Virus record (IMG/VR): IMGVR_UViG_3300017971_000201 | Span: 95,665-159,664 of that record | DNA: 64,000 nucleotides | From: a virus | Direction: 5' to 3' (one strand) | In this document: piece after piece, positions 974 to 57,314 of the stretch | Numbering within the stretch: the stretch's first letter is position 1 | Layout of the letters: every line of letters starts with the position of its first letter | Notes under the pieces: model-generated | Told to the model about the DNA's origin: nothing | What the model saw: only the letters and a program-made list of their open reading frames with translations | The model's database searches: none | Translations under genes and position numbers: made by a program

Positions 974-2938
974 GTGGGAGCAGCGCGAAGACGAAACCCC
1001 AAGGTAGCCGCAGCCAGGAAAGGGAAGCCGCCGCCCAAGGCCACCGGCAACTGCCGGAACTACAGGTACGGCGCGCACGAGCCGATCGCCAATCTGGACA
1101 AGGTGCTCGATGAGATGCGCGGTGCTCACGACCTGCGCAACGTGCTGACGTGCATCAACCGAGCCCGAAGCGAGATGATCACGGCCGCGCTCGGCGAGCA
1201 CCAGTCGTACAAGAAAGCCACTGCTGATCTGGCGGCTCTGCACCAGCGGCGCGACAAACTGGAGGCGCAGATCCGGCAACAGAACAGCGCCAGCCGCAAA
1301 CGGCTGGGGCGACACTCCCCGCTGTCTTCGGAACTCGACACCGTTCGCAAGAGGATCGACGAGGGCAGGACCGCTCTCAAGAAACTCCGCAGGAAGCTCC
1401 TCAAGAAAGACCCCGCGCTGAAAGCGGTTGTCGAGGCCGCTGACGACATGGCGAAGAGGGAGACGACTCGCGCGGAAGATGCCTGCGGGCTCTACTGGTG
1501 CACCCGAAACGAGCAGACCGGCAAACGCGCCAAGCTGCGCCGCTTCAAGAAGTGGCGCGACAGCGAAGCGACCATCAGCGTTCAGATCCCAGGGGGGTTG
1601 ACCGTTGAGCAGCTGCTTGGCGGCGAGAACAACCAAGCGCGCCTGGAGCTGCGCCCGGAAGGCGTATGGGTCCAGGGGGCGAGGAAGCGCAAGGTCGAGC
1701 CGGCCGAGGCCGCGAGGAACAAACTCAGACTCGACGAAGACGGCTACCCCATGCGCAAGCTGGGGACCGCCATCCTGCATCTCCGGTGCATGTCAGACGA
1801 GGACGGCAAGCCGATTTGGGCCGAGGTGCCGATCACCTACCATCGCGAGATCCCCGCCGATGCCAAGATCAAGCGGTGCTACTTGCACCGATTCCGGGTC
1901 GGCAACCGCTACCACTGGTCTGTACGCTTCTCGCTGGAGCGGGGGAAGAAAGGCGACGACTCCTGGCTGCACCCGCGCGTCGCCACGACCGGCACGGCCG
2001 CGATCGACATCGGCTGGCGATGGTTCCCCGATCGCCTACGCGTCGCCGTGTGGGCCGGATCGGACGGAGCCGAGGGCGAGCTGTGCTTGCCCAAGTGGTG
2101 GCTGGACGAGATGTACTCCGTCCGGCTCGACCAGCGGGAGCGCGACGTGCTGTTCAACGAGATCGTATCCCTGGTCCTGCCGTGGTTCCGATCGCGGCGC
2201 GGGGAGCTGTCCGACTACGTCGTACAGGCGATCAAGACGATGCACTCGTGGCGCGACAAGGGAAGGCTGGCCGCGCTCTCCATGCGCTGGCGCGATGATC
2301 TGGCCGCCGATCCGGGCGCCAACCCGGCTCACGTCGCCATGTCCATCCGCCTGGAGGAGTGGCGTAAGCGCGACAAGCACATCTGGTGCGAGGAGGTGAA
2401 CCTCCGCAGCCAGCTCCAGGGCTCGCGCAAGGATCTCTACCGGCGATTTGCCGCGATGCTCACCAGCCGCTACGGCCGAATCGTGGTCGAGGAGTTTGAC
2501 CTGAGTGCGGTCCAGAAGCTCCCGCCGGCCTCGATCGATGACGGCACCTACTCCAGGGTCAAGAGGCACAAGGGAGACGCGGCGTGCTCGCACCTGGTCG
2601 GCGCGCTCAAGGATGCGGCGCGGCAGCTGGACAAGAAGAACCCGAAGTGGACGACCAAGCGGTGCCACGTCTGCGGGAAGACCGAGAGGAAGTGGGAGAA
2701 CCCCGGTGAGCTGGAGCACACGTGCAAGCACTGCGGAGTGCTCTGGGATCGGGACGTGAACGCGGCCCGGAACATTCTCGCCGCGAGCGGCGTGGCGGTT
2801 GACTGGACCCGGCCACCGCTCGCGCCAGCCGCCCGAATGACTTATCCACAGGTAGAGAACCGCGAGATGCGTCGATCGCGGCGCAGGAAGGAGGCGCTCG
2901 AAACGACGCGTGCAAGCGGTGATCGACAGACGGCTTAG
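974..2938 (+). CDS. cas12m: Cas12-family (Cas12m-like) CRISPR effector
   Basis: 654 aa, GTG start with AGGAGG 6 nt upstream. RNA-guided type V effector with a split RuvC domain: RuvC-I TAAIDIGWRW (D345), RuvC-II IVVEEFD (E506), RuvC-III WDRDVNAARN (D592/D594), with a zinc ribbon C564-C567/C584-C587 between II and III. The N-terminal half (GLYWCTRNE, then SVQIPGGLTVEQLLGG at 202-217) recalls Cas12m (type V-M, formerly V-U1/c2c4), as does the length. That subtype call is from family memory, not a search. Studied Cas12m proteins bind DNA and block expression without cutting it. Here the acidic triad looks complete, so cleavage cannot be excluded. The array starts 10 nt after the stop on the same strand. 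No cas1, cas2 or tnpA is present. Confidence 0.85.
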   Translation: MGAARRRNPKVAAARKGKPPPKATGNCRNYRYGAHEPIANLDKVLDEMRGAHDLRNVLTCINRARSEMITAALGEHQSYKKATADLAALHQRRDKLEAQIRQQNSASRKRLGRHSPLSSELDTVRKRIDEGRTALKKLRRKLLKKDPALKAVVEAADDMAKRETTRAEDACGLYWCTRNEQTGKRAKLRRFKKWRDSEATISVQIPGGLTVEQLLGGENNQARLELRPEGVWVQGARKRKVEPAEAARNKLRLDEDGYPMRKLGTAILHLRCMSDEDGKPIWAEVPITYHREIPADAKIKRCYLHRFRVGNRYHWSVRFSLERGKKGDDSWLHPRVATTGTAAIDIGWRWFPDRLRVAVWAGSDGAEGELCLPKWWLDEMYSVRLDQRERDVLFNEIVSLVLPWFRSRRGELSDYVVQAIKTMHSWRDKGRLAALSMRWRDDLAADPGANPAHVAMSIRLEEWRKRDKHIWCEEVNLRSQLQGSRKDLYRRFAAMLTSRYGRIVVEEFDLSAVQKLPPASIDDGTYSRVKRHKGDAACSHLVGALKDAARQLDKKNPKWTTKRCHVCGKTERKWENPGELEHTCKHCGVLWDRDVNAARNILAASGVAVDWTRPPLAPAARMTYPQVENREMRRSRRRKEALETTRASGDRQTA

Positions 2939-2948
2939 GAGAGATGCT

Positions 2949-3335
2949 CTCGCGGTCCCATCGGAACGGGTTGTGGTTCCGACAACGTGGACTGGGAACG
3001 CTTCTACAGAGCCTTCGCTCTCGCGGTCCCATCGGAACGGGTTGTGGTTCCGACACGCACCAGAGTCCCTTCCCGGCCCGCCGCGCTCCACTCGCGGTCC
3101 CATCGGAACGGGTTTGTGGTTCCGACACAGGTAAATGCAGGTCCCCAGGTGCTTGTGGCTCGCGGTCCCATCGGAACGGGTTGTGGTTCCGACACAGGTA
3201 AATGCAGGTCCCCAGGTGCTTGTGGCTCGCGGTCCCATCGGAACGGGTTGTGGTTCCGACGTAGCAGAAGTAGTCGCCGATCTCGACCTCCACCACGTCC
3301 TCGCGGTCCCATCGGAACGGGTTTGTGGTTCCGAC
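2949..3335 (+). CRISPR. CRISPR array, 6 repeats and 5 spacers
   Basis: Repeats of 35-36 nt start at 2949, 3020, 3091, 3159, 3226 and 3300; spacers are 36, 36, 32, 32 and 39 nt. Repeats begin CTCGCGGTCCC and end GTTCCGAC. Their 3' half folds as TCGGAAC-loop-GTTCCGA directly beside the spacer, as in type V crRNA handles, so transcription with the effector gene is favoured. The only variation, an extra T in repeats 3 and 6, lies in the loop. Spacers 3 and 4 are identical. No leader or adaptation genes are visible; the effector stop lies 10 nt upstream. Confidence 0.97.
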
Positions 3336-3416
3336 AGATTCATGTAGGCGGGCGGTAAGGCGGCTACCTCCGCATCGCCGCCGCCCGCTTCGGAACCCGC
3401 GCCCTGATGCAGAAAG

Positions 3417-4915: not shown

Positions 4916-7735
4916 CTAGTGCCGGTGCATCCGCCCGGCCAGTCGCTCTTGCTCGACCAGCGACGTCCCCAGGAACGCCAAGTCCTGGGATGCTGCGTCG
5001 CCGGCGAGAAGTTCTGCTTGTTCGCTCTCCTCGAACGCTCGCCGCTCGTCCTCGGTGATGTGCTCGCGGCCGGCGCTCATGGACCTGCGCACGCGCTCCA
5101 TGGGACCGCCGGGCTCCTGCGCCCGGATCTCCGACCGAGACGCGGCGGCGTCGATCTCCCTGGTGGAGGTCAGCTCGTCGTTGCGAACGTCCTCCATGAT
5201 CGACTCACGGTTCGGGTGACCGATCGTCCGGTCGCTCGCGTATGCCAGGAGCTTGGCCCTGGTGCCGGCCGTGACAGCCCGCTCGAGCATGTCGGCCTGC
5301 TCCTCGATCCGCGCCCGCGCGTCCCGGACCTCCTCGTCCTTGCTCTCGAGAGCGGACGTCAGACGCTCCTCCAGGGCCTCGAACCTCTTGGTGACCTCGG
5401 ACCGGTAGCGCTTCTCACGCGCCTCTGCCTGGGCGAGCGCGTACTCGGCCTCGGACGCCCTCTCCTCCGCGAGGCGGATCGCGGTCCCGGCCTCCTCGTT
5501 CGCGGCGGTCTTCGCCGACATCTGTGCTTCCTCGATCGAGGTCAGCGCTGACTCGACTCTTGTCTTCAGCTCCTCGGCGGTGTTGCACGCAGCGATGTCG
5601 CCGATCAGGTCGCGGACGCTCTCTCGATCCTCGCGTCCGCCGATCATCTGCTCCACGTAGAGCTGGAACGCCAGCTGGCGTGTCTTCTCCTCGACGTGCA
5701 CGACGCGAGACTCCGCGTCCTTGGCCTTCTGCTCCTGCTCGTCCGCTGCCCGGGACAGCTCCTCGATCTTGGCATCCTTCTCGTCCAAGACCTTCTTCTC
5801 GTCGGGCGACGGGGCGTAGGGGTTGACCATCTCGGCGATCTTCTTGAGCGCCAGCTTCGCGCCGGCCGTCTCGGGATCGCTCGCGAAGTCGCTGCGGACC
5901 TCCTCCTCGACCTTCGTGCGCATCTCGGCCAGCGCGCGGACGAGCTTGGCCGCGAAGTCCTCGCGCAGCTCGTCGATCGCCTTCTTGTAGATCTCCTCCT
6001 TTTGGGACTCGACCTCACCGTTGATCCGGTCGTCGGTGTCCTCGGCCGCAGTCTCCGAGGCCACCCGCATCGCGTGCTGCTCGATCACGCGAACCGCGTC
6101 CGGGAAGTGCTGGCGCAGCATCGTCTCGGTGACCTCCTTCGGGTCCACCACGAGCTTGCCGGTGGGCTTGCCCTCGCCGTCCGTGTCCTCGGAGATCACG
6201 GACGGATAGGCGTCGTGGCAGGCCGGATCGGCCACGAAGTCCCACGTGTTGAGCTTGAAGTCCTCGCCGACCATGTCCCAGCCCCGGGGGCCGGTGGACG
6301 TGGAGCCCATGCCCCGGCTGGACATGCCGATGGCCGCACCCCGCCGCAGGAACGCGGCGAGGTTGCGACCCGCGTCGGCCTCCTCGACGACCTCGAACTT
6401 GCCGTTGATCGTCCCGTCGTCCTCGATCCAGAGACCGCGAACGATGCAGCCGCCCTCCCGGATCCGGCTGTTGTGGTTGACGGTGAAGTCGCCCAGCAGG
6501 AACCGGCCGTCGCCGTCCAGCTCGAATCCGGCGTAGTCGCCAGTTCCGATGGACGTGACGATGAACCCGGTCCTGAGCGCATCCTTTCGCTGCTCGCGCG
6601 GCTCGGCCTTCTTGCGCTCCAGACGGGTCGGGATCTGCTCCACGTCGCCCCAGATGGTGAGCGTGTGGTAGTCGTCGCTGTAGCCCTGCACCTTGCGCGT
6701 GGAGAGCACGGCCTGGAGGCCGAGCGACTTGGCGATCCGGTGCGCGGCCTGCGCATAGTCGGCGCGCTTCTGGGTGATGTAGAAGCAGTTGTGCTGGAGA
6801 TGACCGTCGGTGTCGATCAGCCCAGCAAGGAACTGGAGACGGGTCTCGCGGCTCCCGCGCACAATCGCGGTCGGGATCTCCACGTTGGTACCCACCATGT
6901 CGCGCATCGCGCGCAGCAGCCGGTTGTCTTGGCCGCGACCGGCGGTCAGGTGGATCGTGACGGCCTCGGTCCCGGTGGTCTTGCGCCACTCGTTCGTGGA
7001 CAGCTCCCACCGTGCGGCGGTGTCCTCGCAGAGCTGCTTGATCTCGTCATCGATGGTCGTGATCGAGATGTCACCAATCCTGGGCGCACCGGCCTTGTTC
7101 TCGCGCAGGGTCTTGCCACCGTCACCGAACCAGACGCCGAGGAAGTAGGGATCGACCTTCGGTTCGGGCAGCTCGTCCTCGAACCGCTCGACGCCGGTGC
7201 TGAACAGCTTGTAGCGGCTCTTGTAGTAGATGCTCTTGTCGAGATAGTCCTCGACCGGGATGTCCACGATCTCGCCGCTGGACGTGTGAACCAGCGTCAG
7301 TACGTGCTTGTCGTTGCAGACCCACGGATCGCCCTTCGCCGGGTCGATCCGGTAGAGCTGGCCGGTGCCGGAGGTTGTCGCCAGCACCGTGCGCGCCTTG
7401 CCGTCCGGCCCCATGAGTCGGTCGCCAGCGACGATCTGCTCGACCGGGAGCACGCGACCGTCGGCCATGAGGACCGGAGTCCCCAGGCCGAGGCACTTGC
7501 CGTCCCCGGGATGGTCGACCGCGCCGATGACGCTCCCCTGCTCGATCCGGGGCTGGAGTCTTCCGATCTCCCTCTCCATGACCGAGCGGGGGTAGACGCG
7601 GTTGTTGGCCGTCGGCTTGTCCACGTGGCCGATCTTGCCTTCGACCACGAGCTTGCCACCGTCCCTCCCTTCGAGGATCTGCATCCTCATGGGCGGACCG
7701 TAGTGGTCGACCAGCACGCGCCTGTTCGTCGTCAT
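4916..7735 (-). CDS. Prohead protease fused to coiled-coil scaffold-like domain, intein-containing
   Basis: 939 aa precursor. After removal of a 342-aa intein (residues 81-422) the mature protein would be 597 aa, well over twice T4 gp21 (about 210 aa). The protease part has GAVDHPGDG (H75, catalytic His candidate) and AAIGMSSRGMGS (S472/S473, catalytic Ser region), as in gp21-type serine proteases that mature the prohead. From about residue 560 a long Glu/Lys/Arg-rich coiled-coil follows, as expected of a scaffold, so protease and scaffold appear fused. It sits between the acidic scaffold-like gene and the capsid gene. ATG start with CGGAG upstream. Confidence 0.9.
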   Translation of the reverse strand: MTTNRRVLVDHYGPPMRMQILEGRDGGKLVVEGKIGHVDKPTANNRVYPRSVMEREIGRLQPRIEQGSVIGAVDHPGDGKCLGLGTPVLMADGRVLPVEQIVAGDRLMGPDGKARTVLATTSGTGQLYRIDPAKGDPWVCNDKHVLTLVHTSSGEIVDIPVEDYLDKSIYYKSRYKLFSTGVERFEDELPEPKVDPYFLGVWFGDGGKTLRENKAGAPRIGDISITTIDDEIKQLCEDTAARWELSTNEWRKTTGTEAVTIHLTAGRGQDNRLLRAMRDMVGTNVEIPTAIVRGSRETRLQFLAGLIDTDGHLQHNCFYITQKRADYAQAAHRIAKSLGLQAVLSTRKVQGYSDDYHTLTIWGDVEQIPTRLERKKAEPREQRKDALRTGFIVTSIGTGDYAGFELDGDGRFLLGDFTVNHNSRIREGGCIVRGLWIEDDGTINGKFEVVEEADAGRNLAAFLRRGAAIGMSSRGMGSTSTGPRGWDMVGEDFKLNTWDFVADPACHDAYPSVISEDTDGEGKPTGKLVVDPKEVTETMLRQHFPDAVRVIEQHAMRVASETAAEDTDDRINGEVESQKEEIYKKAIDELREDFAAKLVRALAEMRTKVEEEVRSDFASDPETAGAKLALKKIAEMVNPYAPSPDEKKVLDEKDAKIEELSRAADEQEQKAKDAESRVVHVEEKTRQLAFQLYVEQMIGGREDRESVRDLIGDIAACNTAEELKTRVESALTSIEEAQMSAKTAANEEAGTAIRLAEERASEAEYALAQAEAREKRYRSEVTKRFEALEERLTSALESKDEEVRDARARIEEQADMLERAVTAGTRAKLLAYASDRTIGHPNRESIMEDVRNDELTSTREIDAAASRSEIRAQEPGGPMERVRRSMSAGREHITEDERRAFEESEQAELLAGDAASQDLAFLGTSLVEQERLAGRMHRH
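6470..7495 (-). mobile_element. Intein with LAGLIDADG endonuclease in the protease gene
   Basis: 342 residues. Starts at C81 (CLGLGTPVLMADGRVLPVEQ) and ends DFTVNHN followed by Ser423 as +1 nucleophile, all standard for a class 1 intein. Endonuclease motifs are YFLGVWFGDGG and FLAGLIDTDGH. Insertion falls directly after HPGDGK, close to the catalytic His, so the protease should be inactive until splicing. The ends look intact, and splicing is expected. Confidence 0.93.
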
Positions 7736-9060: not shown

Positions 9061-9897
9061 CTACTCCTTCGTTTCGTTCGCGTTGTCTTGCTCGGCCAGG
9101 CTCGAGAGGAACTTGGCTCCCATCAGAAGGTGGCTCGCCATACTGGACACGCCCTCGTAGACGCCGGCCAGCTCGGCCTCGTCATCGCGGCTCGCAGCAT
9201 CGAGCGCCTGGATGGCGTACTTCATGTCCGCCGCGATGTCCCGAGCGGCCTCCTCGATCTCCTTCGAGGTACCCTCGGCCTTGGAGAGCAGCTGGATCGA
9301 CTCGGCCGTGCTCTTGGCGGCCGTGGTCAGCGCTGCCCGGAGATCATCGACGCTCCCCGGCAGGTCGTGAGCGCGAGGGGCGGGGATCTCGATCTGTGCG
9401 TCCTCGCCGACTCCCTCGCGCACGACCTTGTGCCACCAGGCGTCCCGCTGGATGGAACGCTTGGACACCTCGGTCGCGACCTGCTCGCCGAGATCGCCTT
9501 TGTAGTTGAGCGCATTGGCGATGCCCGCAACCAGCGGTATCGCCGCGTCGTAGTCGTCCGCCAGGATCATGGAGACAGCCGCCTTGGCCGTTTCCATGAC
9601 CTCGGCTCCGACGTCCCCCACCTTGTCGGGGATGTCGAAGACCTCCACCTCGCCCAACTCGATCTTGCCGTCCTCTTCCTCGATCCGCACGCGCATCAGG
9701 ATGCCGTTCTTCTCGGCGAGCGCGTGGTGAGGATACGTCGCGAGGAGCTGAGCCGGTCCGGCTGCCCACTCGGAGCTGGCTAACGCCTCCGCAATACGAT
9801 CACGTCGGAACTCGAGCGACCCCTCTCGCAGATGGGAGAGAACATCCTCGGCCTGCCTCACGTTCCGCAGGAGACTGATGATGGCTGCATCCTTCAC
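9061..9897 (-). CDS. Hypothetical head-module protein
   Basis: 278 aa, mostly helical, function not recognised. It lies between portal and scaffold-like genes, so a structural or assembly role is likely. GTG start with GGGAGGGAG upstream and its own TAGAAA promoter candidate in the 60-nt gap behind the portal gene. Confidence 0.7.
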   Translation of the reverse strand: MKDAAIISLLRNVRQAEDVLSHLREGSLEFRRDRIAEALASSEWAAGPAQLLATYPHHALAEKNGILMRVRIEEEDGKIELGEVEVFDIPDKVGDVGAEVMETAKAAVSMILADDYDAAIPLVAGIANALNYKGDLGEQVATEVSKRSIQRDAWWHKVVREGVGEDAQIEIPAPRAHDLPGSVDDLRAALTTAAKSTAESIQLLSKAEGTSKEIEEAARDIAADMKYAIQALDAASRDDEAELAGVYEGVSSMASHLLMGAKFLSSLAEQDNANETKE

Positions 9898-9959: not shown

Positions 9960-12900
9960 CTACTGACCGTGGAATCTTCGGGTCATCGCGAGCAGCTCCT
10001 TCCGGGAGAACTTCCCGGATGGCGGAGCGGACATGCTGCCGCCGTTGGTTCGGCGCAGCAGGCCACGGACCTCCTCGAAGAACGCGCGCCGCTCGTGCTC
10101 GCGCCTGGCGAAGCCTTTGTCGCCCTCCAACAGACGATTGAGCTTGTCCGAGATCTCGGAGTGCCGGCGGCTCGACTCCCTGTACTTCCATTCCTCGAGA
10201 CGTCGCTCGTAGTCGTAGCGCTTCCACTCCTCTGGCGTCGGTTTCTTCCCCTTGCCGACCGCCGGGGCCTTGGGCTTGGGCGACGGCTTGGGCGCCGGCT
10301 TAGGGGTTCCCTCCTCCTCCTCCGGCGGCGCTTTCTCTGGCGCCTCCTCCGGCGGAGCCTCCTCCGGCTCTTCCTCCCCGCCCGGCGGCGGGGCCTCTGG
10401 CGGCCCGCCCTGGCCGCCGCCCATCGCGTAGCTGGGCAGATCGCCGGCCTGCTCCTCCTCGGAGTCCTTCTTCTGTTGCTTCTCGATCTCCTTGATCTCC
10501 TCCTCGGAGAACTTGAGGATGTTCTCCTGGATCCAGCGGGTGCTCACCCACGGCTGAATCCGGCTCGCGTAGTCAGCTGCCGCGTTCATGGTCTCGTAGG
10601 CCGCCAGCTCCCAGATCCCCGAGGGCACGGTCATCTCGATCGTGAACTCGGGCTTCCAGGGATCGCGCACGCCGCGAGCGGCCAGGTGCGTGCGAATGAC
10701 CCTCTCCCAGCCGATCTTCAGCTCGCGCTGGAGATTCAGGGTCACCCGGGCCGCGCGAACGTCGTCGTTCGACAGAATCGACTTCGACGGCGGGGCCTCG
10801 TCCTTGCCCAGGTAGGCGCGCGGGACCTTCAGTGTCGCGTGGAGCATCTGCTTGAAGTACTCGACATCATCGACGGCCTGGTAGTCCGGGCCGGAGAGGA
10901 CGTCCACCCTGGCCAGCTCGCGGCCCTCGCGAACGGCGATGAAGAAGTCCTCGTCACGGGCGAGAGGGTTGTAGCGGAGATCCAGCCGGCCGGATCGGGG
11001 GTTGACCATCCGCTTCTTCTTGAGGTCCCGCTTCGCCTTCTGAAGGAATGCGCCGACCTGGTCGGACGGGATGTCGGTCGTGTCGATGTAGTAGGCGTAA
11101 CGAGCTGGCGCGCGCGTGTTGTGCACCACGCACCCGTCCGCGACGAAGTTGTGCTCGTCGGCCTCGACACCGATGTCATAGATGTCATCTGTCTCGATTT
11201 CCTCGACGCCGCGAATCACCTCTGTCTTCGCCTGGGGCTTGAAGGAGACGTCCAAGCAATAGGACGTGCTGGTCGGAAGCGGCTTGCTGGAGCCTTTGAT
11301 CGTTCGACCGCCCGCTCGCGTACGAGACCAAACGAAGGTGGCGACCAGCCCGAGTTGCATGGCCAGCTCGCGCACATCCTCCAACAGCTGCTTGTTGCAC
11401 ATCTCGAAGCGAGCGCGCTCGTAGCGCGTCTTCCTTCCCTCCTTGCGGGGCTTGATGTGTGCGTCCGCGTCGGCAAGCCCTCGGATCATGGCCAGCTTGA
11501 GCTTGGGATGCGCTCGGAAGATCCACTCCGGCAGACGCTTGTGGTGGGCGCCGGGGACGAACCCGTTGAGCGTCATGAACTCAGCGAACTTGCCGGAAAC
11601 GATCGTGTAGGCGCCTAGCCGGTGGCCGGTATCGCCGACCAGCTTGACTGGCGCATATTTCTCGAAGAGAGCCTTGTACTGCTCGTTGATGTCCTGGTGC
11701 GCCCCAAGCGCGAACCCGGTCTCGTTCTGAGCAACGTGAGCCTCAGAGTGACCTGGGCGCAGCTTATGAGTGCGGGTGGCGACGAACCCGTCCCCGAGCA
11801 TGAACCCCCACCACCGCGCGAAATCCGCGTCGGCGGTTTCCGGGACCGTGATCCCTGTAACAGGAGTGCCGCGCTCACCGCCCCAGTGCTCCTCGATCTC
11901 CAGATGCTCTGGGCCGTGACCGTTGGCTTCCAGCAACGCTACGGCAGTATCGGTCTTGAGGTCATAGTCGCCGGCGAAGAAGTCGCGTGCCCGGCAGTGA
12001 TGCACACCGACCTGCTTCGCAATCTTGGGGTAGGGCATGGTCCGCTCGACAGCCCCGACGAGTCGCGCCTTGCTGTGGAGCTGCGGCCTTTCGAGGTAGA
12101 TCTCCTCCCAGTCGTCTTCGTTCTTGGAAGGGGTGACGAACCTGTGCACGCCAGGCTCAAGGTTCTGGACCTCCACGTAGTCCAGCCGGCGGATCTGGGG
12201 AATACCCTTGCCCCGGCCGACAACCGTCTCGACCAGAACAGGGTGCGTCCTGTTGGCGAAGATCTCCCTGTGGTCGCTGAAGACGCGGAAGATCTTGTCC
12301 TGGCCGTTGTGCTTCTTGTAGACGACCTTCGTCTTCTTCAGCCGGTGATCGTTGCCCGGATCGGTGTAGGAGTAGACCTCATCTCCCTCCTGTAGATCCT
12401 TGATTGCCTTACGGCCGTCTGGCGTCCAGATCTGAGAGTCTCCGCGCAAGCAGAGCTTGTAGATCAAGACCGAGTCCTCGAGCATCACCAGCCGCTTCCA
12501 GATCCAGCGAGCGCCCTCAGCGACCGAGACGCCGTAAGGCGACCGCCGCCGCGTCGCGCGCAGGCGGAAGTGGGCAACCTGCCAGTCCTCGAACAGGGCG
12601 AGACTCCTGGGGATCTCGACGTTGCCGGCGAGCATCCGCCGCAGCTCTTGGCTGTTCGCGGTGAACTGGCCGGTGACGTCCTGCACGAAGCCGATCAGAC
12701 CGCCGTCCAGACGCTCGACCCGGCGCATCGTGGGAACCGGGAGCGTATTGGTCCCGACGATCCCGTTCTCGGTAATGAGCAGCTCGAGGTAGTCGTTGCC
12801 CATCATCCCGAGGCCGTAAGCCTGTGGCCAGATCTCGTCCTCGACCCGCAGGATCCGGTGCATCAGGTCATTGCCCAGGCCCTTGAGAGCGTCGTCCTCC

Positions 12901-13202
12901 GACATGACCCAGATGCAGCGGCCGTCCTTGACCGAAGGCTGGGTCGCGTCGTTGGCAAAGTAGTGGAAGGCGCTGTTGATGTCCGGGTACTCCTCCATCG
13001 CCTCGTAGTCGGCAAACCGATCCATGAGCGACTGGGAGACGGTGAGCAGACCGCCGATGTCCTCGCGCCCCCAGACCGTGAACATGCTCGGCACGTGGTG
13101 ACGCATCGCCGCGACAGACGGAGAGTCGGCCTTGGCCCGCTCCTCCTGTGGAGCGCCGAATACGTTTCGGAGCGCCTTGACCGCCCTATCACGGAGGGCC
13201 AT
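9960..13202 (-). CDS. Portal protein, T4 gp20-like, intein-containing
   Basis: 1,080 aa precursor containing a 445-aa intein (residues 251-695); mature length 635 aa. Forms the dodecameric DNA-entry ring at the head vertex. The join YKL/TRAPARYAYYIDT restores the gp20-family segment (RAPxxRxFYID) with IPSDQVGAFLQKAKRDLKKK and the PRSGRLDLRYNPLARDEDFF block. The C-terminal 150 residues are Pro/Glu-rich (EEPEEAPPEEAPEKAPPEE) and then basic, a long tail compared with T4. ATG start; overlaps the Hint-HNH gene by 14 nt. Confidence 0.93.
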   Translation of the reverse strand: MALRDRAVKALRNVFGAPQEERAKADSPSVAAMRHHVPSMFTVWGREDIGGLLTVSQSLMDRFADYEAMEEYPDINSAFHYFANDATQPSVKDGRCIWVMSEDDALKGLGNDLMHRILRVEDEIWPQAYGLGMMGNDYLELLITENGIVGTNTLPVPTMRRVERLDGGLIGFVQDVTGQFTANSQELRRMLAGNVEIPRSLALFEDWQVAHFRLRATRRRSPYGVSVAEGARWIWKRLVMLEDSVLIYKLCLRGDSQIWTPDGRKAIKDLQEGDEVYSYTDPGNDHRLKKTKVVYKKHNGQDKIFRVFSDHREIFANRTHPVLVETVVGRGKGIPQIRRLDYVEVQNLEPGVHRFVTPSKNEDDWEEIYLERPQLHSKARLVGAVERTMPYPKIAKQVGVHHCRARDFFAGDYDLKTDTAVALLEANGHGPEHLEIEEHWGGERGTPVTGITVPETADADFARWWGFMLGDGFVATRTHKLRPGHSEAHVAQNETGFALGAHQDINEQYKALFEKYAPVKLVGDTGHRLGAYTIVSGKFAEFMTLNGFVPGAHHKRLPEWIFRAHPKLKLAMIRGLADADAHIKPRKEGRKTRYERARFEMCNKQLLEDVRELAMQLGLVATFVWSRTRAGGRTIKGSSKPLPTSTSYCLDVSFKPQAKTEVIRGVEEIETDDIYDIGVEADEHNFVADGCVVHNTRAPARYAYYIDTTDIPSDQVGAFLQKAKRDLKKKRMVNPRSGRLDLRYNPLARDEDFFIAVREGRELARVDVLSGPDYQAVDDVEYFKQMLHATLKVPRAYLGKDEAPPSKSILSNDDVRAARVTLNLQRELKIGWERVIRTHLAARGVRDPWKPEFTIEMTVPSGIWELAAYETMNAAADYASRIQPWVSTRWIQENILKFSEEEIKEIEKQQKKDSEEEQAGDLPSYAMGGGQGGPPEAPPPGGEEEPEEAPPEEAPEKAPPEEEEGTPKPAPKPSPKPKAPAVGKGKKPTPEEWKRYDYERRLEEWKYRESSRRHSEISDKLNRLLEGDKGFARREHERRAFFEEVRGLLRRTNGGSMSAPPSGKFSRKELLAMTRRFHGQ
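11118..12452 (-). mobile_element. Intein with LAGLIDADG endonuclease in the portal gene
   Basis: 445 residues from C251 (CLRGDSQIWTPDGRKAIKDL) to CVVHN, followed by Thr as +1 residue. Block B is NRTHPVLV; endonuclease motifs are WWGFMLGDGFVA and IRGLADADAH; the block F region is IYDIGVEADEHNFVADG. All splice-junction residues are present, so it should splice. Confidence 0.94.
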
Positions 13203-49637: not shown

Positions 49638-49876
49638 GCCGCCATTCTACTATGCAGGAACGGATCTCGAAACCTCGTAGGCATAGTCCCCTTCAGTTCC
49701 GCCCGTTATGCGCTCTGAGACCATCCATCGCACGCAGGAACCGCCCGGGGGAGACCCTGCTGCCCGCTAGGGGGTCGCGTCAGGGGGGTGGGGTGTGTCA
49801 CCCCTCCCGCTAGGGGGCCTGTGGAGTGGGGGCGCCGGGGGCCGGCGGCACGGTGCGTACCGACCGGCGGCAGCTG
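49638..49876. other. Intergenic region with recurrent motifs
   Basis: 239 nt. Holds the TAGAAT promoter of the endonuclease gene (49644-49649), the second imperfect flanking repeat, and two copies of CCCGCTAGGGGG (about 49764 and 49804). No gene seen. Confidence 0.5.
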
Positions 49877-52763: not shown

Positions 52764-53435
52764 TCAAGGGCCGCCTCCAGGCGGCTCCTGTGGGCCGGTG
52801 TAGCCGAACTCGGGCGTGTAGTCGGGCACCTGCTCGTCCACGGCCCGGCGCTTCCCACGATCACCTCGCCGGTTCGGCCCGTAGGTACGCTCGTCTTCAT
52901 CGGCCGGCGCTCGGCCGGGCGGAGGGCCGCCGTCGCCGGCGAAACCCGCATCATCGTCCTCCTCGGCCGGCGGCGGCGGCTCCTCCTCGGGCTCCTCGAG
53001 CGAGGGGTTGATCCCTCGGTCGGGGAACACGAGGTAGCCCGATGGGGTCTGGAAGAACTCGTCGCAGCCCTCGTCCTCCTCGACCTCCTCGATCACGGCC
53101 CCCTCGACCTCCTCGATCACGGCCTCGTCGCGATCACCAGCCGGCGCTGGGCTGAACTCTCGGGGTACCCGCGCGGGGTCGGCGCTGACCTCGGCCTTCA
53201 GGAGCGCGATCTTCGCCTTCAGGGGTTCGAGCACGCCGTGATGCGCGGCCAGGATCTCGACCGACTCGGCCGGCAGCTCCTTGATCACCACCATCAGGGA
53301 AGTTACGGCCTTGGTCATGCGCTTCTTGCCGCTCGCCCAGTGGCCGATCTGGGCCGGGTCGACGCCGATGATGGCCGCGAACTCACGCTGCGTAAGCCCG
53401 GTCGCAGCACGGGCTTCTGACACAAGGGTCATCAC
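52764..53435 (-). CDS. XRE-family regulator with acidic C-terminal tail
   Basis: 223 aa. Residues 5-50 form the helix-turn-helix (TGLTQREFAAIIGVDPAQIG then WASGKKRM). The rest is acidic and disordered (EEPEEEPPPPAEEDDDAG). CAGGAGG precedes GTG 53435 or ATG 53432. A perfect inverted repeat upstream (53479-53501) is a plausible self-operator. Likely a transcriptional switch protein. Confidence 0.78.
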   Translation of the reverse strand: MMTLVSEARAATGLTQREFAAIIGVDPAQIGHWASGKKRMTKAVTSLMVVIKELPAESVEILAAHHGVLEPLKAKIALLKAEVSADPARVPREFSPAPAGDRDEAVIEEVEGAVIEEVEEDEGCDEFFQTPSGYLVFPDRGINPSLEEPEEEPPPPAEEDDDAGFAGDGGPPPGRAPADEDERTYGPNRRGDRGKRRAVDEQVPDYTPEFGYTGPQEPPGGGP

Positions 53436-53478: not shown

Positions 53479-53501
53479 CTTGATGAGACGGGGTCATCAA
53501 G
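53479..53501. promoter_or_regulatory. Candidate operator CTTGATGA-7-TCATCAAG
   Basis: Perfect 8-bp inverted repeat with a 7-nt centre, 45 nt upstream of the XRE gene and just behind the second XRE gene. Confidence 0.6.
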
Positions 53502-53505
53502 ATCG

Positions 53506-53534
53506 GGCTCTCACGATGACCTCCGATCATCGCC
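53506..53534 (-). repeat. Repeat containing GATGATCGGAGGTCATCG
   Basis: About 29 nt that recur in inverted orientation at 54838-54868 with a 2-nt indel. Overlaps the 3' end of the small XRE gene. Confidence 0.75.
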
Positions 53535-53750
53535 GGCGGCTCCCGGACCGTTCTTCTCCAACTCGTCGAGCACGAACTGCGGGTGTAACTCGATCAGCCT
53601 GAGCAGGTTGCAGGCCATGACCGACGGCTCGCGCCCCATCTCCCAACGCTCGTACGTCGCGCGGCTCACCCCCAGCCGGCGGGCCATGACCCGTTGGCTA
53701 AGTCCTGTAGCCATACGTGCGCGCTGCGCCAGGTTCAAGGAAGCCCCCAT
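53511..53750 (-). CDS. Small XRE-family regulator
   Basis: 79 aa; ATG at 53750 about 17 nt after a GGGTAGAAC promoter. ARMATGLSQRVMARRLGVSR then ATYERWEMG is a complete XRE helix-turn-helix, followed by an LxxLIELHPQFVLDEL dimer-like helix. Cro- or antitoxin-sized; no toxin partner adjacent. May bind the palindromes upstream. Confidence 0.8.
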   Translation of the reverse strand: MGASLNLAQRARMATGLSQRVMARRLGVSRATYERWEMGREPSVMACNLLRLIELHPQFVLDELEKNGPGAAGDDRRSS

Positions 53751-53767
53751 CCGGCTCGACCTCCACC

Positions 53768-53776
53768 GTTCTACCC
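53768..53776 (-). promoter_or_regulatory. Extended -10 promoter GGGTAGAAC
   Basis: Perfect copy; short leader to the ATG at 53750. The first palindrome of the array (53778-53796) overlaps the likely -35 region. Confidence 0.55.
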
Positions 53777-53777
53777 C

Positions 53778-54615
53778 GCGCCACCGTCGTGGTGGCACCG
53801 ACCTCGAAAAGCAGTGCTCAAGCAGCTCGGCCTGGCCGGTCCTGGCGCCCTAACGTCTTGGCCCCCAATGCAACTGCCACCATGATGGTGGCACCGGACG
53901 GGACCTCGACCAGTCGACGGGACCTGGTCGCGGGGGGTATCAGCTCGCTCGAGTACCCGGCGGCCGGTGCCACCATGATGGTGGCACTGGGCACAGATCG
54001 TCGACCTAGAGTCGCCCACCTCGGCCGGCCGGCGGCGGGCTGCCCGCTAGGGGCCTGCGTAACCCCCGCCGGGCCAGGCCGCCTGCCACCACGATGGTGG
54101 CACCGGAGATCGATGTGACCTGATTGGTGGTAGGCCGTGGATACGGCCCCATGGCTACTAGCTCTGCACGATGAAGCACCAACGGCCGACGTGAAACCCG
54201 CTTGGTTGCTGGCCTCCAGCCGTGTCACATCTTCGGCCGGCCGACATGGTCGTTAGCGCACCCGCCAACGGCAATCGGATCCCAGTGCCACCACGATGGT
54301 GGCAGCGGCCGGCGCGGCGAAGCTCACTAGTTCGTACTCGACCGACCGGCAGCACCCGCCACTGAGCGGGCTCGGGGCCGCGTCGCACCACGGGGCTGTA
54401 CGGGCCTCCTCGAGCCGATTCGGATGGGCAGGTATCAGGCATCGAGTTTTGAAAATGGGGCCGCCAGAGTGCCCGCTAGAAGCATGTATGGGGGCGCGGA
54501 GGGGGCGCGGAGGGGGCGTGTGGGCCATAAGTCATAATCAGACCGTGCGGGTGCCACCACCATGCTGGCATCCGTGCGGGTTCCGTTAGGCTCCGGTGCC
54601 ACCACCATGGTGGCA
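53778..54615. repeat. Array of seven TGCCACCA-3-TGGTGGCA palindromes
   Basis: Copies at 53778-53796, 53875-53893, 53968-53986, 54084-54102, 54286-54304, 54552-54570 and 54597-54615. Arms are 8 bp; the centre varies (TGA, CGA, CCA). Copies 1 and 6 carry mismatches. All are outside genes. Probable binding sites of one dimeric protein. Confidence 0.9.
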
Positions 54616-54837
54616 ACCCTAAGTCCTTATGGGAAGATGAGCCGTCATATGTCCTTTTGCGTCGGTATGTGTGTCCGGTCGAGGGCTCGGTGGCAGGGCT
54701 TCGAGGTGCCGCATCGACCAGAGTGAGGCGACCACGGCCTCCTCGGCCTGCGGCAGCCAGGGAGGTCGTCCTCTCCTACATAGAGTCCCGATAGCTATAC
54801 CGGCCGCGACCGTTTTTCAAGGACTTACGTCGAGGGG

Positions 54838-54868
54838 GGCGATGATCGGAGGTCATCGCGTGAGAGCC
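54838..54868 (+). repeat. Second copy of the GATGATCGGAGGTCATCG repeat, inverted
   Basis: Inverted partner of 53506-53534. The two copies bracket the palindrome array and the small XRE gene. Confidence 0.75.
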
Positions 54869-54888
54869 GATCGCTACTGAAGGGCCTG

Positions 54889-55131
54889 TCATTCGCCCGG
54901 CGGAGGCAGCCCCTCCTCGAAGAATTCCTCCAGCTCCCGCCGCCGCGCCTCGTAGACGGCCAGGCGGGCCGCGATCGTGAGGTCGGAGACGGCCGCCAGC
55001 CGCTCGATCGCCGAGGGCGTCTGGTACCCCTGCCGGGCCAGGTGAGCATCCACGGCGCGCGCGATCTTCTCCGCCCGCTCCTCCGGGGTCCGGGAGAACA
55101 TGGGGGCGGTGGGCGGCTGGCGCGTCTTCAT
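54889..55131 (-). CDS. AVDxLA-motif protein of the long-motif subfamily
   Basis: 80 aa, ATGA overlap. TPSAIERLAAVSD then LAVYEARRRELEEFFEEG. Last gene of the long minus-strand series that begins at 60930. Very similar plan to the next two genes upstream. Confidence 0.66.
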   Translation of the reverse strand: MKTRQPPTAPMFSRTPEERAEKIARAVDAHLARQGYQTPSAIERLAAVSDLTIAARLAVYEARRRELEEFFEEGLPPPGE

Positions 55132-55442
55132 CGGCCGGCCGCCTTGTCGATCTCGCTCCTGAGCGTGCGGATCGCGCGCTCTCGGGCGGGGCCGCCGCCG
55201 TCCGCCTCGAAGAACTTGGTCAGCCCACTCACCAGGGCGTCGTACGCCTCGACCCGCTCCCGGGCCGCTGGGTCTGCCACGGCCGCGAGGCGCTCGACCG
55301 CGCTCGGGGGCTCGCCGCACTTCTGTCGGATGAGCTGCTTGGCGATCGGGCCGGCGTTCAGGACCGGGCCTGGCTCCCATGGCCGGCGTGGGTCCGGCGG
55401 GCCGATGAACAGGGGCGGTCGGTCAGCGCCGCCCCCGCTCAT
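55128..55442 (-). CDS. AVDxLA-motif protein of the long-motif subfamily
   Basis: 104 aa; ATG at 55442 in ATGA overlap with the natural stop of the gene upstream. PPSAVERLAAVADPAARERV then EAYDALVSGLTKFFEADG. Pro-rich N-terminus. Confidence 0.66.
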   Translation of the reverse strand: MSGGGADRPPLFIGPPDPRRPWEPGPVLNAGPIAKQLIRQKCGEPPSAVERLAAVADPAARERVEAYDALVSGLTKFFEADGGGPARERAIRTLRSEIDKAAGR

Positions 55443-55706
55443 GTGCCCTTCCAGATCACGCCGGCGTCCTCGGGAAGCAGGTCGCCCAGCCGCGCGCTCG
55501 TGGATGGCCGCGAGGGCGTCGATCGCCGAAGCGGGCTCCAGCTCCCAGGCTTGCCGGATGAGGGGATCGGACCGGGTGAGGAGCCGCACCAACACCACCC
55601 CGGTCTCGTCGAGGTCGGGCCGCCACTCCCTCTCGTCTGAGATCACGAACCCGATCGTCCCGCACCGGGTTCGGACGGCCGCGCCACGTTGGAAGTGCTC
55701 GGTCAG
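55439..55706 (-). pseudogene. SH3-like protein with AVDxLA motif, frameshifted
   Basis: From a CTG at 55706 overlapping the upstream TGA: TEHFQRGAAVRTRCGTIGFV barrel, then EPASAIDALAAIHERA. In the reading frame as given it runs into the next gene. Moving one frame near 55488-55500 (GCGCGC run) gives RLGDLLPEDAGVIWKGT and a stop in perfect ATGA overlap with the next gene, so an indel is likely. The unusual CTG start lies in GGTCAGCGCTGCCC. Confidence 0.55.
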
Positions 55707-55987: not shown

Positions 55988-56196
55988 GAGTCGCGCTCCT
56001 CGTGTAGCCTCGCCAGCTGGTCCACGGCCGGCTCGGGCTCCAGCCGCCACGTGTTGGTCACGAACCTGGCGCCATCATCGAGACAGACGAACCATCCCGA
56101 ACAGGTGGGGCGCGACGCGTCCGCCATGATCATGCCGGGCCGGCGCTTGCGCTTGCCGTACAGCTCCCGGTAGACGATCCGATCGCCGGGCTTCAT
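55984..56196 (-). CDS. SH3-like small protein with C-terminal AVDxLA motif
   Basis: 70 aa, ATGA overlap. PGDRIVYRELYGKRKRRPGM barrel; ends EPAVDQLARLHEERDS. Confidence 0.68.
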   Translation of the reverse strand: MKPGDRIVYRELYGKRKRRPGMIMADASRPTCSGWFVCLDDGARFVTNTWRLEPEPAVDQLARLHEERDS

Positions 56197-56450
56197 GGGC
56201 CGCTCCTCGCGATCTCGGCCAGCGCATCGACCGCCGACACCTCCCGCAGCTCGCTCTCGTAGAACCACTGGGCCTCGCCGCCGGTCAGCCGCCGCACCCA
56301 GGCCCACTTCTCGCCCGTGCCCTTCTCCCAGCCGCGATCCTCGGGCTCGTGGCCGACTCTCTCGATACGGACCAGGTTGCCGACGTAGCCGCGCACGCTC
56401 ATCGCGCTGGCGCGAACGACTCGGTAGACACGGCCCGGCTTGAGCTTCAT
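56193..56450 (-). CDS. SH3-like small protein with C-terminal AVDxLA motif
   Basis: 85 aa, ATGA overlap. PGRVYRVVRASAMSVRGYVG barrel; ends EVSAVDALAEIARSGP. Confidence 0.68.
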   Translation of the reverse strand: MKLKPGRVYRVVRASAMSVRGYVGNLVRIERVGHEPEDRGWEKGTGEKWAWVRRLTGGEAQWFYESELREVSAVDALAEIARSGP

Positions 56451-56659
56451 GGCCACCCCGCGAACACGCGCTTGACGCAGTGGTAGCAGGTCGGCCGGCC
56501 TTCCGCCGTCTCGGTGATGCGCCACACGTGGCTGCACAGGGACAGCCGCCACGTGGGGTCGGCCCGGTCCTCCTCGGTGCCCTCCCGATCGTCGGGCGGC
56601 CGGATGATGTGCCAGACGGTGCTCGTGGGGCCGCGTCCGATCACATGGCCGCCGCTCAC
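56447..56659 (-). CDS. Small protein with Cys/His pairs
   Basis: 70 aa, GTG start in GTGA overlap. LCSHVWRITETAEGRPTCYH then CVKRVF suggests one metal site. No motif. Function unknown. Confidence 0.6.
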   Translation of the reverse strand: MSGGHVIGRGPTSTVWHIIRPPDDREGTEEDRADPTWRLSLCSHVWRITETAEGRPTCYHCVKRVFAGWP

Positions 56660-57021
56660 GACAGCTCTCCCAGGTCGGTCACCACGTCGCGCATGTCGGC
56701 CAGCTCGTCGATGATCCGGCGGGCGTGCTCCTTGGTGATCTCCTCGGCGGTCAGCTCCATGAGGCGCATCTGCGCGAGGGTGTACGCCTCGGGATGACGG
56801 GCCGCGACCCAGCTGAGGATCTCGGCCAGCGAGTCCCGGCCCCGGTTGACCGCGCCGATCGCGATCTTCGTCGCCTCGTCGAGGTCGGCAGGCACGGGCA
56901 CAGGGGGGCGCTTGACCCGCGCGACTAGGACCGCGTCCTCGGCCATGCGCACGACGAATGACAGGTTCACCACCGCATCGGCGAGCCGGTCTCGGTCCTC
57001 CTCGGTCGGCCGGCGGATCAC
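56656..57021 (-). CDS. Helical protein with motif-like C-terminus
   Basis: 121 aa, GTG start overlapping the previous stop. Helical; ends MRDVVTDLGELS, a divergent motif copy. EITKEHARRIIDELADMRD before it. Confidence 0.62.
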   Translation of the reverse strand: MIRRPTEEDRDRLADAVVNLSFVVRMAEDAVLVARVKRPPVPVPADLDEATKIAIGAVNRGRDSLAEILSWVAARHPEAYTLAQMRLMELTAEEITKEHARRIIDELADMRDVVTDLGELS

Positions 57022-57314
57022 GGCGACACCAGCCGGGCGAGCTGGTCCACGGCCGACAGTCCTTGGATCTCCCGCCGCACCACCTTGTAGGTCTCGTCGT
57101 CCCGGCCGTTGCGGGTGACCGACCAGCCGTACTGGTGCCAGTGCTCCCGCACCGCCCAGTGCTCGAGCTGGCAGGCTGGGTTCTGCTTGAGGGCCGCGAC
57201 CCGGGCCTCGACGAGCTTGCGGGCCGCCTCGTGGGCCTGCTCCTGGGTCGCCCAGATCTCCACGGTCTGGAGCACCTGGTTCTGGACGGTCCAGACGACA
57301 TCGGACCGCGTCAT
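57018..57314 (-). CDS. Small protein with C-terminal AVDxLA motif
   Basis: 98 aa, ATGA overlap. Ends QGLSAVDQLARLVSP. Beta-rich middle WHQYGWSVTRNGRDDETYKV. Function unknown. Confidence 0.66.
   Translation of the reverse strand: MTRSDVVWTVQNQVLQTVEIWATQEQAHEAARKLVEARVAALKQNPACQLEHWAVREHWHQYGWSVTRNGRDDETYKVVRREIQGLSAVDQLARLVSP

Follow-up and report, generated by a model that had tools for sequence, protein, structure and literature searches.

A palindrome array beside two XRE genes of a giant T4-like phage: a candidate self-regulated switch for phage replication

What might a 19-bp palindrome do that recurs seven times within a gene-free region, next to two genes for XRE-type regulators, in the genome of a giant phage? 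The phage is represented by a record of 159,664 bases (G000), of which bases 95665-159664 form the window, that is, the whole stretch of 64,000 nucleotides that was analysed and to which positions refer unless they are given as record positions; its head genes, gp23 and gp20, are T4-like. To our knowledge, little is known of replication timing in virulent-type giant phages. Together, the elements described below have the look of a control switch that regulates itself and governs phage replication, and the locus would provide a compact regulator with a defined candidate site and named target genes, all of which can be tested.

A search of the window at up to three mismatches retrieved seven copies of TGCCACCA-N3-TGGTGGCA, a 19-bp palindrome, at positions 53779-54615, which bears out the seven-copy array described in an earlier note on this DNA. 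Five copies are exact (P2, 53875-53893; P3, 53968-53986; P4, 54084-54102; P5, 54286-54304; P7, 54597-54615), one carries a single mismatch (P6, 54552-54570) and one carries two (P1, 53779-53797). Dinucleotide-shuffled versions of the window contained a mean of 0.23 such palindromes, at most two and never seven. Comparison of the copies also agrees with the remark in the note that the arms are constant and the centre variable. The spacing is irregular, with 96, 93, 116, 202, 266 and 45 bp from start to start. The region had been called gene-free; with genes called heuristically from GC at third positions and from conservation, the interval 53751-54888 indeed holds no conserved ORF except frames that overlap xre2. 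Both XRE genes that had been placed beside the array encode proteins with HTH_3 matches and lie on the minus strand: xre2 (53511-53750; 79 aa, with a possible alternative TTG start at 53738), whose product matches HTH_31 (6e-9) and HTH_3 (3.5e-8) above the Pfam cut-off, and xre1, the second regulator (52764-53435; 223 aa; HTH_3, 7e-6).

The probable promoter element of xre2 is a GGTAGAAC box at 53768-53775 on the minus strand. This box occurs 39, 62 and 37 times in G000 and in two related phages considered below (G001 and G007), against about 5, 8 and 4 expected copies, and a start codon follows 5-7 nt after about half of the boxes, versus 11% by chance; the excess and the start-codon spacing together suggest that it is probably a promoter element of this phage group. 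Genome-wide, the box is likely to be a leaderless-type promoter in G000, G001 and G007. P1 lies just upstream of the xre2 box, from which 3 bp separate it, and so sits on the probable promoter, in line with the earlier statement that one copy overlaps the promoter of the small XRE gene; a palindrome of G007 is placed in the same way, by a promoter box ahead of another gene. No GGTAGAAC box adjoins the other six copies of the array, which are therefore not simple promoter operators.

Several further elements mark the non-coding region. The CTAGCGGGCA (CCCCTAGCGGG) element occurs within the array at 54041-54050 and 54470-54479, both times on the minus strand, the latter copy with a conserved TTTTCAAAACTCGA downstream. 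Exact copies of this element number five in G000 (at 49761, 51114, 52171, 54041 and 54470, all minus) and five in the matching region of G001, several of them just upstream of genes; all copies fall within a region of about 5 kb on one strand, and the variant found in G007 ends in G. A conserved non-coding block (54386-54866) is 69% identical to its counterpart in G001 over a 519-column alignment. Finally, P7, the outermost copy, adjoins an AT-rich 60-mer (54615-54674; 53% AT, top 0.09% of the record). The 60-bp segment beside the outermost palindrome ranks in the top 0.1% in both G000 and G001, and G007 has a comparable one next to a palindrome; each genome also has several places that are equally or more AT-rich.

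The earlier note had proposed that the whole genome be searched for further copies, and had stated that a random distribution of the palindrome, coding regions included, would refute its reading. Across the rest of the 159,664 bases only two more palindromes were found at up to two mismatches, one at record position 9278 (one mismatch) and one at 7461 (two mismatches), each at replication genes and clear of any called gene, while a reversed control pattern had no match in the whole G000 record at the same threshold. The copies are thus not scattered over the record; the palindrome is restricted to two loci. The copy at 7461 lies directly upstream of dnaN (record 6298-7410, minus), the gene for the DnaN sliding clamp (PHROG processivity factor, 8.5e-36); at dnaN, some 35 bp separate the site from the GGTAGAAC box downstream of it in both G000 and G001. 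The copy at 9278, about 255 bp upstream of the nearest same-strand GGTAGAAC box, precedes a winged-helix gene followed by that of a RepO-like initiator (phrog_270, 3.9e-13); the genes further downstream in this replication operon encode a loader of the DnaC type, an intein-containing DnaB helicase and a Toprim primase. The position of the two extra copies at replication genes links the array to the replication operon.

The array accompanies the xre2-xre1 pair in all three phages that could be compared, two of which are partial records. G001 is a record of 275,101 bases whose xre2 is 68% identical to that of G000; its right end matches G000 next to its left end, indicating that it is circularly permuted and near complete. 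It possesses seven sites ahead of xre2 and two in the replication operon, in places orthologous to those of G000, with the core TGCCCCCA-N3-TGGGGGCA and single base changes in some copies. Both genomes keep the order palindrome pair, CTAGCGGGCA, palindromes, CTAGCGGGCA, palindromes, xre2. Most palindrome spacings differ between them, and one pair is kept: P6 and P7 are 45 bp apart from start to start, exactly as in G001. G007, a 120-kb record with a capsid protein about 80% identical, has the same xre2-xre1 order as G000 and about nine TGCCCC-N7-GGGGCA sites around the two genes at 64-70 kb. Among the other records (G002-G006 and G008-G010), most of them fragments from which the locus may be missing, no array was seen. 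The exact palindrome was found in nine stretches of viral contigs, as an array solely in a near-identical contig (L020); by our estimate, the single matches in other viral contigs are about what chance would produce in a collection of this size. Searches with XRE2 matched only the three phages among viral contigs, gave weak matches among phage and plasmid records and none among genome contigs, and a search with DnaN matched only G001.

Which protein reads the palindromes? The AF2 model of XRE2 (mean pLDDT 86) has the HigA2 antitoxin as its top PDB match, both by fold with Foldseek and by sequence profile. The top Foldseek matches (5j9i, 5jaa and 8a0x) have a probability of 1.00 with a modest E value (0.015), and TM-scores of about 0.65 (query) and at most 0.78 (target). 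HigA2 binds the operator TGTACGC-N5-GCGTACA, a palindrome of 19 bp as well; its Arg68 and Asn72 contact guanines 14 and 12 of strand 2, Glu71 contacts adenine 3, and Arg77 contacts guanines 5 and 12 (PMC11006873). When the 17-mer of that work is numbered from GTACGC, every contact falls on the stated kind of base, from which we derive that Arg68 reads base pair 5 of the 19-mer.

This is the very position at which the sites have changed. One base pair per half-site, the same one in every copy, differs between G000 and G001: at half-site position 5, G000 has A in 17 of 18 half-sites whereas G001 has C in all 18. G007, too, has C there at all correctly registered sites, one out-of-register copy being left out. 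Positions 2, 3 and 6 are nearly constant across the three phages. The recognition helix of XRE2 changed in concert, residues 30-33 being RATY in G000 and HSSF in G001. Half of the 12 residues of segment 29-40 differ between the two proteins, versus 6 of 50 elsewhere (Fisher p = 0.008, for a segment picked with the HigA2 contacts in mind). HigA2 Arg68 aligns, gap-free in this stretch, with XRE2 residue 31, so that alignment to the HigA2 contacts would place residue 31 on the changing base pair; the combination is Ala with A:T in G000, and Ser with C:G in both G001 and G007. Among four candidate regulators, a matching change of the recognition helix is seen only in XRE2: that of RepO is identical between G000 and G001, and those of the winged-helix protein and XRE1 carry nothing beyond single conservative changes. 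As only three phages are compared, the evidence of co-change comes from one or two evolutionary events. One observation does not fit XRE2 as the binder: Arg35, the aligned partner of HigA2 Asn72, is invariant, yet position 7 of the G007 sites is T or G. Taken as they stand, the changes would represent a natural switch of specificity, in which a few residues of the helix and, across nine sites, one base pair in each half-site are altered together.

From these sequence comparisons we consider it reasonably probable that the palindromes are sites for XRE2 dimers, through which XRE2 autoregulates xre2-xre1 and controls the replication operon. On each site, a dimer would place one recognition helix per palindrome arm. 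Bound at P1, XRE2 would block or modulate xre2; the overlap of P1 with the probable xre2 promoter makes autorepression of the operon the most likely outcome, repression being the default for XRE proteins bound at such a promoter position. Through the two distant copies, XRE2 may control the winged-helix protein, the RepO-like initiator, DnaN, the DnaC-like loader, DnaB and the primase. For the six other array copies we infer a role as a reservoir, or as a cooperative (looping) operator over nearby promoter-like elements. XRE1 probably has palindromes of its own, confined to the xre locus: a TGATGA-N7-TCATCA palindrome in the xre1 promoter region (53481-53499) and two CGATGA-N7-TCATCG palindromes, at 53514-53532 and, on the far side of the array, at 54840-54858, are its proposed operators. 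Sites of the form [CT]GATGA-N7-TCATC[GA] occur only three times in the 160 kb of G000, all within the xre2-xre1/array locus, and the G007 counterpart consists of four ATACTC-type sites found only in this locus of that phage. The xre1 gene stands behind xre2 in all three phages (orthologues by alignment). With palindromes of its own on either side, XRE1 could add a second regulatory layer.

The co-change of site and helix, together with the resemblance to the 19-bp TG...CA palindrome of HigA2, favours the operator cluster that the earlier note had listed among its candidates. The same note had envisaged a switch of the lysis-lysogeny type. In such a switch, XRE2 and XRE1 would be a repressor/Cro-like pair of a temperate-phage immunity region and the array would hold their operators. 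Two XRE genes and two types of palindrome interleaved around one non-coding region would suit such an arrangement, but the two genes run in one direction, the head genes are T4-like, and model searches for tyrosine integrases, resolvases and ParA, run with positive controls, gave no match to Phage_integrase (PF00589), Resolvase (PF00239) or ParA in G000 or in the near-complete G001; this part of the proposal is thus unsupported and we consider it improbable. The lack of a ParA match (PF13614; the positive controls matched) likewise leaves unsupported the suggested parS-like site, here the centromere of a phage-plasmid. Clustered near-perfect palindromes in a non-coding region would agree with a centromere; the single ParB_N match, however, is found in G001 only, at 58.3 kb and far from the array, and we give this possibility hardly any credence. 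The arms could also pair in RNA, the A-to-C change having occurred on both of them in a matching way, and might then serve a long leader as terminators, processing sites or sites for protein binding; alternatively, the palindromes could be a mobile REP-like repeat. Against the RNA hairpins, a terminator scan detected no terminator-like site, no Rfam family scored above its gathering score, the neighbouring conserved block is not unusually stable when folded (z -1.7 and -1.1), and base pairs are broken in some copies; the absence of copies outside the two loci indicates that the palindrome is not a spreading repeat. We regard either form as highly improbable.

The replication origin, also among the candidates of the earlier note, calls for closer weighing. 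Under it, the palindromes would be iteron-like sites for the initiator, be it RepO or the winged-helix protein, or for XRE2 in the role of an origin-control protein; the AT-rich segment by P7 would be the unwinding element, and the sites in the operon would autoregulate initiator synthesis. The extra palindromes at the replication operon, the conserved 0.5-kb non-coding block beside the array and, among several comparable places in each genome, the AT-rich segment that abuts a palindrome in all three phages would agree with an origin, as would multiple repeated sites in one non-coding locus, which the initiator would have to bind. Conversely, the spacing of 45-266 bp is irregular and kept only for one pair, the initiator gene lies about 140 kb (G000) or 116 kb (G001) from the array on the record, and RepO has kept its recognition helix through the change of the site. 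The GC-skew check that had been proposed was run as well: skew follows gene strand, with no clean switch at the array, and does not mark it as an origin. On balance, we find the origin candidate rather unlikely. A combined scheme, in which a HigA-like protein without a toxin sits on an origin-proximal array and on the replication-operon promoters, would make the array a replication-control centre and couple initiation to replisome expression in giant T4-like phages, its specificity diverging from phage to phage by matched changes of the recognition helix and of every site; we think it unlikely.

The phage has other features of note. At 974-2938 (plus strand), the window encodes a protein of 654 aa that matches a Cas12f1-like TNB domain in Pfam (3e-13). 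Six repeats of about 36 nt (CTCGCGGTCCCATCGGAACGGGTTGTGGTTCCGAC) with spacers of roughly 30 nt come next, at about 2945-3336, so that the phage has a compact Cas12-like gene together with a CRISPR-like array. Intein or homing-endonuclease insertions occur in the genes of the prohead protease, the portal and DnaB (window 4916-7735 and 9960-13202; L010 2936-5704). Many otherwise unrelated small proteins share the motif (P)SA(V/I)(D/E)xLAxL, often near the C-terminus; of the called ORFs, 23 out of 201 carry it in G000 and 40 out of 385 in G001, whereas shuffled proteins gave 0.08 and 0.22, and the small ORFs at 55128-55646, 56193-56552 and 57018-57314 are examples.

XRE2 and its proposed sites resemble several known systems in part. 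As with the operators and stoperators of mycobacteriophage L5, one phage regulator would have many sites per genome; the L5 sites are asymmetric 13-mers distributed genome-wide and bound by a monomer (PMC9283540). Such asymmetric, orientation-dependent and dispersed sites are not what we find here, where the palindromes are symmetric and seven of nine are clustered. SPbeta similarly has a repeated site at promoters, SPBRE, read by a phage master repressor, MrpR, which differs in its recombinase-like fold and in having its sites at promoters throughout the prophage (PMC10516654). Iteron origins such as that of PLE RepA share with the array several symmetric non-coding repeats and a link to replication genes, PLE1 having three closely spaced repeats of about 30 bp (PMC8263062) and the phage seven widely and irregularly spaced 19-mers. 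MqsA has a C-terminal HTH of the same type as XRE2, whose match to the MqsA_antitoxin Pfam model is weak and below cut-off (22.2 bits versus 30; E 1.6e-4); unlike MqsA, XRE2 with its 79 aa has no room for the N-terminal zinc domain, and no MqsR was seen. HigA2 of Vibrio cholerae shares with XRE2 the XRE fold and the type of palindrome, binding as a dimer to a single 19-bp TG...CA inverted repeat that overlaps its own promoter (PMC11006873). In contrast to HigA2, XRE2 has no toxin gene at its side (the array lies upstream, xre1 downstream, and the next genes beyond the array have no Pfam match), so that an antitoxin-like DNA-binding domain appears to be in use without a toxin; it would serve at least nine sites rather than one, some of them far off at replication genes, and its host genome is that of a giant phage.
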